A stretch of 64,000 nucleotides of DNA, from NCBI GenBank assembly GCA_902806435.1, contig CADCWO010000165.1, positions 1 through 64,000 on the forward strand, written 5' to 3'. The position numbers were made by a program, and so were the translations under genes. Below the pieces are notes generated by a model that was not told where the DNA came from, ran no database searches, and saw only the letters and a list, made by a program, of their open reading frames with translations. Positions 24,803 through 27,840 of the stretch are shown piece by piece. The stretch is from an uncultured Synechococcales cyanobacterium. Lineage in GTDB: Bacteria; Cyanobacteriota; Cyanobacteriia; Thermosynechococcales; Thermosynechococcaceae. Numbering within the stretch: the stretch's first letter is position 1; each line of letters opens with the position of its first letter.

Positions 24803-25963
24803 CTAAGCTCGAATTTGAATGGGCATAATCAGGTAGGTCATTTTTCGGCCGCCTAGGGGAGAAAGCACCGCGGGTGTTGTTTCGGAATTGCACTGTAGTT
24901 GCACCTGCGCACCGCTCATCGCTTTCAATCCGTCCACCATATACTTCACATTAAAGGCAATCTCAAGAGAACTAGGAGCCTCTCCTTGGCTCTGGGATGA
25001 ATGGTGGGAGATTTGTGCTGGTAAAGACTCTTCTCCACTGCCAAAGGCAGGCGCTTCTGCTGACAAAGCGAGTTGTTGGCTGTTGTTGTCAATCGTCAAT
25101 TTGACCACATTGTTTTTTTGGGCTGCCAGTACAGCAATCCGCTCTAGAGAGGCGACTAAAAGCGATCGCTCAACTGTCACCTGCCAGCTAAACTGCTGGG
25201 GAATCAGTTGATGATAGTTAGGATATTGTCCCTCTAGTAGCCGACAACTCAAACGGTCTGAACCATCGGGCTTGACAAATTCAAAGCTAATCTGGCTCAC
25301 GTCAAATCTAAGGGACAATGGTTTCTCTAAATCATTTGAGGTACGGCCCATCATCCGCTCTAGTTCTCGCAATGCCTTGGCGGGAATTGTCACTGAGGTG
25401 TCAGGCAGTTCCGCCCCATGAGCTGAGGTAGTAACGGCTAAACGATGACCATCCGTTGCCGCAAATTCAAGGGAATCGAGTTGGCTACTGAGGTGTAGAC
25501 CGGTCAGCACCTGTTTAGTTTCATCGGTGCTAGCGGCAAATAATGAACCCTGCAATCCATCCAGAAGCGTAGCCGCCGGCAATACTAATGGCAGGGCATC
25601 TTGAATCTCCGGTAGACCAGGAAACTCTTCTGCCGTAATACCTTGCATCTGGTAATGGCCGGATGCACAGGCTAATGTTACTGCTAGCTCGTGGGCATTA
25701 ATTTCAATCGCAGTATTCGGCAGACGTGAAACAATATCGTTGAGAAAGCGCGCAGGAAGTGTGATTGCCCCTTTAGCCTCGACTTGAGCCGGAATCCACA
25801 CCTGTATGCCTAGACTTAAGTCAAAAACCGTCAAACCTAATCGTGACTCTTCAGCTGTGAGTAGAACGTTCGCAAGAACTGGATGAGCAGGATTTGCAGG
25901 TACAACTCGGCTCAGGAGAGACAACTTGGCACTGAAATCGCTTTGGGCACAAACCAGTTTCAT
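24803..25963 (-). CDS. dnaN: DNA polymerase III beta sliding clamp
   Basis: The 386-residue product forms the ring that tethers the replicative polymerase to DNA. It opens MKLVCAQSDFSAKLSLLSRV and ends with YLIMPIQIRA, the usual C-terminal (M/L)P(I/M)R-type tail. Three repeated clamp folds fill the length, which is typical. ATG 25963 is preferred over the TTG one codon upstream. It lies downstream of dnaA across the origin region, on the same strand. Confidence 0.96.
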   Translation of the reverse strand: MKLVCAQSDFSAKLSLLSRVVPANPAHPVLANVLLTAEESRLGLTVFDLSLGIQVWIPAQVEAKGAITLPARFLNDIVSRLPNTAIEINAHELAVTLACASGHYQMQGITAEEFPGLPEIQDALPLVLPAATLLDGLQGSLFAASTDETKQVLTGLHLSSQLDSLEFAATDGHRLAVTTSAHGAELPDTSVTIPAKALRELERMMGRTSNDLEKPLSLRFDVSQISFEFVKPDGSDRLSCRLLEGQYPNYHQLIPQQFSWQVTVERSLLVASLERIAVLAAQKNNVVKLTIDNNSQQLALSAEAPAFGSGEESLPAQISHHSSQSQGEAPSSLEIAFNVKYMVDGLKAMSGAQVQLQCNSETTPAVLSPLGGRKMTYLIMPIQIRA

Positions 25964-26463
25964 CAAGTTTTAATTACTAAGTTTCAACTACTCAAACTTT
26001 AATTCGCCTACTTCTGATTAGAAACACCGAGGTGCTAATCAGCTGCTATACCCTCAGCTTGGATGCACATCCTACCACCCCTGCCAGTAATCCGCTAGTC
26101 AGCTTGTCAATTGCCTGCTAAAGATTCCTTCTAAATATTTTTAAATTTAAAGATAGTAGTAGTAGAGTCTGTGGAAAATGTGGAAAACTTTTTAAAACCA
26201 TTGTTCCCAAAAGCTTTGAGCTAGATCTGCCCTGTGGAAAACCTGTGGAGAAAGTAGGGGGTTTTTCCACAGGGCAGATAAGCTTAGCAAAATTATCCCC
26301 AGAATGCTTAGGTTTTCCACAGGTTTTCCACAGCTTATTCCACAGAAAAAGGCTATTTTTCCACAGGCTATTCTTCGGTTTACAAATATTTACGACAAAA
26401 TTTATTATAAATTAATGATAGGTTTTTTTAAGCTAAGATTACTTGAATTGCCAAGTCAAGGCT
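25964..26463. other. oriC: Chromosomal replication origin oriC (dnaA-dnaN intergenic)
   Basis: The 500-bp gap carries ten DnaA boxes between 26170 and 26365. Perfect TTTTCCACA or its complement is at 26170-26178, 26179-26187, 26233-26241, 26263-26271, 26313-26321, 26324-26332 and 26357-26365. One-mismatch boxes are at 26244-26252, 26293-26301 and 26336-26344. The first four point left and the rest point right. An A/T-rich stretch at about 26376-26446, next to the dnaA stop, is the likely unwinding element. A dnaA-dnaN location with clustered boxes is the standard bacterial oriC setting. Confidence 0.9.
26225..26279. repeat. 17-bp perfect inverted repeat within oriC
   Basis: ATCTGCCCTGTGGAAAA (26225-26241) is the exact reverse complement of 26263-26279, with a 21-bp spacer that holds a further near-match DnaA box. 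Each arm contains a full DnaA box plus eight extra matched bases, so the symmetry is more than two opposed boxes. Confidence 0.9.
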
Positions 26464-27840
26464 TCAAGCTTGGGCCTGGCTAGCCGAGTTAATACGCTCG
26501 GTTAGTTGGCGGATAGTTTGGGCCATTTTTGGATCAGTACGCTGCAATTCCGAGATCTTCTCACAGCTGTAAATCACTGTGGTATGGTCTTTGCCGCCAA
26601 ATTCCTCTCCTATTTTCGGTAAGCTTAGCCCGGTATGATGGCGCATCAGATACATGCCAATTTGTCGTGCCAAGCTAGTTTCTCGGCGGCGGGAGCTGCT
26701 TTTAAGATCTTCTAAGGGAACTCGAAACATGTCGACAATGGCTGTCAGCACTGTTTCTGGTGAAGCTTCAATGATCTCAGTCGCCGGGTTCAGCACGGGG
26801 GAAATATTCTCGACGGTCATTGGTAGTCCCGAAATCGAGATGTAAGCTACTGCCCGGATCAAGGCTCCCTCTAGTTCTCGGATGTTAGAGGTGTAATTGG
26901 AGGCAATGTACTCAATTACCTCTCTGGGTAAACGGATATTTTCGTACTCAGCCTTTTTTTGCAGAATTGCCATCCGGGTTTCGAGATCAGGAGCTTGAAT
27001 GTCAGCGATCAAACCCATAGAGAAGCGAGAGCAGAGACGTTCCTGTAGACGCGGAATTTGGCTAGGAGGACGGTCAGAAGCTAGTACTACCTGTTTGCCT
27101 GCTTCATGCAGGGTGTTGAAAGTGTGGAAAAACTCCTCCTGGGTGTACTCTTTGCCCTCAATAAATTGGATATCATCCACCAGCATCACATCCACCGCCC
27201 GGTAGTGTTCTCGGAAGCTTTGCATACTGTCTTTGCGAATCGCTGCAATCAAGTCGTTGGTAAATTGCTCTGTAGAAACATAGAAGATCTTCGAATCGGG
27301 ACGGATTTCCAAACGATAATGACCAATCGCTTGCATGAGATGGGTTTTGCCTAGACCAACACCACCACATAAAAATAGGGGATTAAATTCTCGGCCCGGA
27401 GATTCTGCCACCGCCAAGCAGGCAGCATGGGCCATGCGGTTGTTGGGACCAACAACGAAGCGCGAAAAGCTGTACTTGAGATTGAGGTCAGTCGGCTTTT
27501 GCTGGCTTGGCCTTGTATTCTCTGGGGTATTAGCTTTGGCGGGTAGGGGGGAGATAATGCCGGGATCAGTGGCGTTACCAACGTCATCCCCTTGGGCAAT
27601 CACGATTTGAATGTCAACTGGGTGACCAAGCACATCCTGTACCACGTCAAAAATCGTTTTAATGTAGTACTTTTGCAGCCAGTTGCGGGCGAAGGGATTG
27701 GGGGTAAGAATGACTAAGCGATCGCCCTCTAGTTTCTGCGCACTAGCGGTTTTAATCCACGTTTCAAATGTCGGACGGCTTAGCTGAAGCTGCAATCGCT
27801 CAAGTACCTGGCTCCAAAGACTTTCAACGGAAATTTCCAC
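26464..27840 (-). CDS. dnaA: Chromosomal replication initiator protein DnaA
   Basis: The 458-residue protein has domain I (residues 1-85), a variable linker (86-118) and an AAA+ domain with Walker [11 protein letters not shown] (158-167) and Walker B VDDIQF (221-226). The C-terminal DNA-binding domain carries the signature [15 protein letters not shown] at about 416-430. All domains are intact. It binds the box cluster just downstream. It is divergent from rpmH across 280 bp. Confidence 0.97.

Follow-up and report, generated by a model that had tools for sequence, protein, structure and literature searches.

The inverted repeat between dnaN and dnaA of an uncultured Synechococcales cyanobacterium very probably marks the seam of a chromosomal origin, at which a leftward array of DnaA boxes (boxes 1 to 4) meets a rightward array (box 5 onward), with the outer six bases of each arm, which are not conserved, stemming from drift or from template switching at an imperfect palindrome. 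The underlying box layout, which consists of DnaA-trios, a tandem box pair, a linker of about 45 bp, two boxes of the same direction and a rightward array, is conserved in many cyanobacteria. The repeat by itself is ordinary, as is the cyanobacterial origin whose seam it occupies. It is visible but probably incidental, and it extends, in this lineage only, a pair of inverted DnaA boxes that are conserved. All five-digit coordinates below refer to the window, the whole 64,000-nucleotide stretch of DNA that was analysed.

Anatomy of the gap between dnaN and dnaA

Two open reading frames flank the site, which we take to be dnaN and dnaA from recognising their sequences. Of the first 30 loci, 10 have dnaN adjoining the site, as located by tblastn with the window's gene as query. 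The nearest named relatives of the DnaA protein are labelled Acaryochloris, Acaryochloridaceae, uncultured cyanobacterium and similar. The features are as follows.

24803–25966, minus strand: dnaN, open reading frame with tblastn query matches
26130–26153, no strand: AT-rich stretch, left of the trios
26154–26165, plus strand: DnaA-trio motif of four TAG triplets
26170–26187, minus strand: DnaA boxes 1 and 2, tandem TGTGGAAAATGTGGAAAA (starts 26170 and 26179), putative BUS with the trios
26188–26232, no strand: linker of 45 bp, near-fixed in length and variable in sequence
26225–26241, plus strand: left arm of the repeat, outer ATCTGC with no match in relatives
26233–26241, minus strand: DnaA box 3, within the left arm
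26244–26252, minus strand: DnaA box 4, TGTGGAGAA
26253–26262, no strand: seam of 10 bp between the leftward and rightward arrays
26263–26271, plus strand: DnaA box 5, with which the rightward array begins, within the right arm
26263–26279, plus strand: right arm of the repeat, outer GCAGAT with no match in relatives
26293–26301, plus strand: degenerate box TTATCCCCA at +123, a place commonly taken by a box
26313–26321 and 26324–26332, plus strand: boxes of the rightward array
26336–26344, plus strand: box TATTCCACA of the rightward array
26357–26365, plus strand: box TTTTCCACA, end of the rightward array
26464–27840, minus strand: dnaA, open reading frame with a match in 57 of 58 related genomes

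Nine boxes lie between the two genes, of which eight or nine have at most one mismatch to TTTTCCACA and seven are exact. This cluster adjoins both dnaN and dnaA, as expected of an oriC and as an earlier sequence-only reading of the window had proposed, and the site is a putative DnaA-dependent chromosomal origin. The same reading rightly placed two inverted DnaA boxes in the arms; their orientation is conserved, and the ‘palindrome’ consists of boxes 3 and 5 of the layout plus their flanks. Boxes 1 to 4 point leftward and those from box 5 onward rightward, which is the opposed arrangement of a two-armed origin. The trios and boxes 1 and 2 form a putative basal unwinding system (BUS), for which the published criterion is three or more trios at most 16 bp away from a DnaA box (PMC8287927); here the four TAG triplets end 4 bp from box 1. 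The adjoining AT-rich stretch is likely, judged by its sequence, to be the DNA unwinding element, and in the class sample almost every position of it is most often A or T. A further trio run at the origin's right end was rejected, as what follows the last box on that side (CTATTCTTC in the window) varies among the 12 origins first compared, window included. Low-affinity boxes within the linker were likewise dismissed, a weak signal at offset 20 being unconvincing.

The sequence, the layout, its conservation and the adjacency of dnaN form the basis from which we infer how such an origin most likely works. The leftward array ends, on the dnaN side, at the trios and the AT-rich element, and the rightward array heads towards dnaA. 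DnaA would fill both halves head-to-tail in opposite directions, so that two assemblies meet at the seam. Boxes 1 and 2, together with the trios, would open the duplex at the left, on the dnaN side. Boxes 3 and 4, which lie 54 bp from box 2 across the near-fixed linker, may be bent next to boxes 1 and 2, by analogy with E. coli, where R5M is brought to R1. If the combination of near-fixed spacing and drifting linker sequence holds across the class, it would imply a rigid orisome geometry that spacing mutants could probe.

Box layout among cyanobacteria

A core model built from the sequences of 12 origins, the window among them, found a match in 28 of the 29 genomes of the family and in 332 of the 388 of the class, many of the class matches being partial or weak; the remaining 56 of the class had none. 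A draw from the whole phylum, class members included, gave matches in 73 of 146. We fetched 130 class origins from the best-scoring listed places, with some near-duplicates removed by hand, a sampling that biases layout and trio frequencies upwards. Leaving out eight of the 130 with poor left or right boxes gave 122 origins for the outer-match, stem-stability and shuffle tests, and leaving out a further 12 with more than four mismatches in boxes 1 and 2 gave 110 for the linker and box-position tests. For the trio count, 13 of the 130 that lacked the layout were set aside (117). Anchoring preferred boxes near their expected places, by a penalty of 0.1 mismatch per bp inside the allowed ranges.

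Among the 110 origins, a leftward box with at most one mismatch occurs at 61–65 in 109 and at 73–76 in 98, a rightward box of the same quality at 91–94 in 97, and all three together in 85. Rightward boxes that were not used in anchoring recur at 121–124 (70 origins), 141–146 (69), 153–155 (40), 164–167 (100) and 185–189 (85). Wrong-way or stray boxes are rare: in the linker region three origins have rightward boxes and one has leftward boxes, and leftward boxes at 95–179 occur in nine origins. The linker measures 43–47 bp in all 110, where 40–51 was allowed. Its mean pairwise identity is 0.37–0.40 for the three common lengths and 0.72 for the six 47-bp linkers, against yardsticks of 0.25–0.29 for shuffled linkers and 0.93 for boxes 1 and 2. 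The seam was measured in 100 origins and is 9–10 bp long in 97 of them.

A second set of 80 loci was ascertained through the DnaA protein and fetched independently of the core model, with some overlap in species with the other set. In 28 of them we found a tandem pair and at least five boxes; 25 of these 28 carry leftward boxes at 62–63 and 73–74, and 22 also a rightward box at 91–93. Another 27 of the 80 have a box cluster without a strict tandem pair, and loci L202, L208 and L243 differ from the layout. In genus g87, to which origin L135 belongs, placement was at 62/91 or 62/92 for each of the 24 further matching species, many of their boxes having mismatches and the allowed ranges being 58–69 and 86–114, and 23 of the 25 origins of this genus pass a stricter layout test. 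Three g87 genomes (G151:C9, G217:C12 and G239:C20; L275–L277) contain a second, weaker model match on the contig of the origin, at a distance of about 0.9 kb.

Outside the class, L309, L310 and L312 were placed at 64–65/93–94, L309 and L312 with six mismatches in boxes 1 and 2, and the outgroup loci L311 and L313–L322 at other spacings or poorly. In L314 and L317 of this outgroup the places are 53–54/82–83, not 64/93, which is about one helical turn shorter, and the boxes are weak. In all seven wider stretches (L324–L330; six from outside the class and one from family f14) dnaN lies 98–263 bp from the site, and two of the seven also have a dnaA match.

Predicted cyanobacterial origins have from 1 to 12 boxes, with three in Cyanothece ATCC 51142, and the layout is therefore not universal (PMC4674748). 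The abstracts and passages of the literature consulted contain no description of fixed cyanobacterial box spacings. The sequence-only reading had suggested an element peculiar to the lineage. This applies to the outer six bases only, since the inverted boxes are class-wide.

Outer bases of the arms

The repeat is exact as it had been described: 26225–26241 (ATCTGCCCTGTGGAAAA) and 26263–26279 (TTTTCCACAGGGCAGAT) are reverse-complementary at 17 of 17 positions, with a gap of 21 nt. Eleven of the 17 bp are accounted for by the 9-bp DnaA box and a CC/GG flank that is common in relatives. The symmetry claimed for eight bases past each box is matched at 8 of 8, but only six of these are extra. In 1000 full shuffles of the 497-bp gap the longest arms reached 6–13, all shorter than the observed 17 bp, so for random DNA the repeat is not a chance product. 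The longest exact inverted repeat in the gap is in fact one of 18 bp (26232–26249 and 26316–26333) that is composed of DnaA boxes. Since the boxes alone already yield it, shuffling with fixed boxes and scanning the whole gap is uninformative. An outer-extension test was used instead, in which the boxes and the two CC/GG flank bases were fixed and the rest shuffled 4000 times. It gave P = 0.002 for at least eight outer matches at any of the gap's 20 inverted box pairs, and a genome scan that takes the best of many windows would be expected to meet repeats of such rarity. At up to two mismatches the 17-mer has two copies in the genome (4.79 Mb, 278 contigs), both within the repeat, and a family of repeats or a mobile element was therefore rejected. 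Folded as a single strand, the 55-mer has a predicted stability of −19.0 kcal/mol, the most stable of 122 class origins (mean −10.4, SD 3.4).

The outer bases were compared with those of close relatives, meaning here members of the same family. Across the 130 origins, the two CC/GG offsets next to boxes 3 and 5 match with frequencies of 0.78 and 0.57, and the offsets beyond them with 0.17–0.43. None of 27 same-family origins has six or more outer matches; relatives without the outer eight were what the sequence-only reading had named as refuting its proposal, and at family level this is the outcome. Over the 28 family origins there are 0 matches in 2, 1 in 3, 2 in 16, 3 in 3, 4 in 2 and 5 in 1, and the window alone has 8; L045 has 2. 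Nor do the outer positions covary overall, for comparison of the 122 origins gave 2.467 of 8 matches at offsets 3–10 within genomes and 2.458 between genomes (p = 0.48).

Long matches are nevertheless in excess. Eight outer matches occur in two of the 122 class origins, the window (L041) and L135, which has 17-bp arms of its own, where 0.14 would be expected between genomes (p = 0.008; p = 0.14 without the window). Runs of at least four at the pair of boxes 3 and 5 occur in 12 origins, with 4.7 expected (p = 0.002). Over 2416 inverted pairs, at least eight matches were seen in four and at least seven in seven, compared with 0.05 and 0.25 in shuffles that preserve the boxes and CC/GG but not other flank preferences. 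The four pairs stem from three lineages, one of them T-rich (L164 and L165, of a single genus). In the genus of L135, none of the 24 other matching species has more than two outer matches. The excess suggests that chance alone may not explain the extension.

To the right of box 5 many origins carry a near-palindromic motif, GGTAWWWATACY. Matched at 10 or more of its 12 positions, and counted on the same sample in which it was defined, it occurs in 56 of the 97 class origins that do not belong to the window's family and in 16 of 19 origins of family f32; its frequency in shuffled flanks is 0.001–0.007. At that threshold it is absent from the window's family (0 of 19; 8 of 12 positions in the window) and from genus g87 (0 of 23). 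Of three origins in family f14, L285 and L286 carry a match adjoining a box and L283 has none. The stretch of the window that corresponds to the motif site is 26272–26287. The motif fits no DnaA box and may be bound by another protein. The motif is not described in the abstracts and passages of the literature consulted, and GGTATTTATACC does not occur in the three papers that a search brought up. As both groups with 17-bp arms are without the motif, their flank may have been freed to drift or to be rewritten.

How the outer matches arose can be read in several ways. The sequence-only reading treated the 17-bp palindrome as a functional unit, and in its fullest form this would be a selected lineage-specific element that guides helicase loading, either as a hairpin in the single strands of the opened origin or as the binding site of a dimeric protein. 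The stability of the stem, the highest among the 122 origins, the existence of L135 as a second origin with 17-bp arms and the P of 0.002 for the window alone with its boxes given would suit such an element, and the excess of long outer matches leaves it some room. Yet the outer bases are neither conserved in the family nor co-varying over the 122 origins, they are unmatched in 27 family relatives and in 24 other species of L135's genus, and the stem would compete with DnaA for the same boxes. We consider this reading improbable.

Coincidence, with the right flank under little constraint in this genome, comes close to an even chance in our judgement. The absence of GGTAWWWATACY from both groups that hold 17-bp arms (family 0/19, g87 0/23) agrees with it, but 18 family members without the motif have no arms, so that motif loss is at most permissive, and chance must also contend with four pairs seen against 0.05 shuffled and two origins against 0.14 between genomes (p = 0.008). 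A possible explanation, which we hold with some doubt, is template switching during replication, in which one arm was rewritten from the other as a functionless quasi-palindrome seeded by the inverted DnaA boxes. A single such event can create a perfect stem (PMC8794818), and the excess of long outer matches would follow. The window's right-arm bases at offsets 4 and 6 are rare elsewhere (0.16 and 0.06) yet pair with the left arm, and in L135 the left CAAG also occurs in L251, while the right arm, GGGGCTTG, is unlike that of L249 and L251. These are few cases, however, picked because they match, and the asymmetry is not clear, as left-arm bases are also rare class-wide (0.12 and 0.18 at two places in the window, 0.12–0.20 at four in L135). 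Without the window the eight-base excess at this pair falls to p = 0.14, and the T-rich L164 and L165 represent a single genus.

Trios in other lineages and comparison with known origins

A run of at least three TAG/TAA triplets beside box 1 is present in 109 of the 117 class origins with the layout, in a sample biased to good matches, in 14 of 23 g87 origins and, among the 19 f32 origins that show the layout, in 1. TAGTAG runs no more than 16 bp from a box were seen in 1 of 31 f32 loci (L331), in 2 of the 35 Nostocales DnaA loci with a box cluster (of 41 named; both 16 bp from run to box) and in 6 of the 20 other DnaA loci with a box cluster (of 39). These counts cover TAG- and TAA-type runs, looser trios (3′-NAN-5′) falling outside them, and at DnaA-anchored loci a trio could sit on another array elsewhere in the genome. 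For f32, the best model matches genome-wide are mostly without trio. We take f32 to be Nostocales because the upstream sequences of L334 and L333 are identical to those of two named loci, L212 (Atlanticothrix) and L237 (Scytonema). Origins of Nostocales and of some other filamentous cyanobacteria keep boxes, often at the same spacings, but have no TAG-trio run, as in L331–L356, L279 and L282, in named loci such as L173, L191, L197, L205 and L220, and also in L177, L190, L199, L218 and L228; in L198 and L214 the run is 16 bp away from the box, with GCGATCGC between them in L198.

Nostoc sp. PCC 7120 replicates independently of DnaA and tolerates deletion of dnaA (PMC7198777). The association of trio absence with DnaA independence is a correlation, and it is weakened by the 14 of 20 non-Nostocales box-cluster loci that also lack a trio run, since trio absence then extends beyond Nostocales. 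Tentatively, one layout of near-fixed geometry might be common to many cyanobacteria and to some of the phylum's members beyond the class, with a trio module joined by a linker of unvarying length to the seam where opposed boxes meet, and with some protein perhaps reading GGTAWWWATACY; Nostocales and some other filamentous lineages would have lost the trios and kept the spaced boxes, marking a shift, such as that reported for Nostoc sp. PCC 7120, away from DnaA-dependent initiation. Retained boxes without trios might then serve to recognise, from sequence, cyanobacteria that have changed from DnaA-dependent to DnaA-independent replication.

At the places in E. coli K-12 oriC that we take to be R1, R5M, R2 and R4, the arrangement resembles the one described here in that a weak box with two mismatches lies 55 bp from R1 and in the same direction, as box 3 lies 54 bp from box 2. 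Two rightward boxes follow beyond the weak box, and a leftward one-mismatch site at 3925942 does not fit. The left arm shares the 12-mer CTGCCCTGTGGA with the R1 box of E. coli oriC, which is probably a coincidence. In E. coli oriC the boxes of the left half are oriented opposite to those of the right half, and bending by IHF joins DnaA at R1 and R5M; as in the window, left-half boxes point to the unwinding element and right-half boxes away from it (PMC5742627). The view that bacterial origins normally have scattered boxes is thus too simple, given this plan of two opposed arrays (PMC5742627). Unlike in E. coli, most boxes in the window have at most one mismatch to TTTTCCACA, seven of them none, the AT-rich stretch is flanked by a TAG-trio run and a tandem pair, and the spacings after box 4 differ.

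Unwinding by the DnaA of Synechococcus elongatus on its own origin needs both boxes and trios (PMC8287927). In PCC 7942, a laboratory strain of this species, oriC has been mapped by experiment (PMC7198777). The putative BUS of the window has the same arrangement of tandem boxes beside TAG triplets that adjoin an AT-rich stretch, but the passages of that paper concerned treat the module alone and do not describe the linker, boxes 3 to 5 or the seam (PMC8287927). The predicted and in vitro tested origins of Cyanothece ATCC 51142 and Anabaena PCC 7120 are alike in having TTTTCCACA boxes beside dnaN; the relevant passages give box numbers and neighbouring genes, with no mention of fixed spacings (PMC4674748). 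Lastly, oriC of Thermotoga maritima also contains inverted DnaA boxes, which were proposed to permit head-to-tail DnaA contacts during open-complex formation, but there the boxes are separated by 5 or 6 bp, whereas in the window 10 bp separate boxes 4 and 5 and 21 bp boxes 3 and 5 (PMC10316083).
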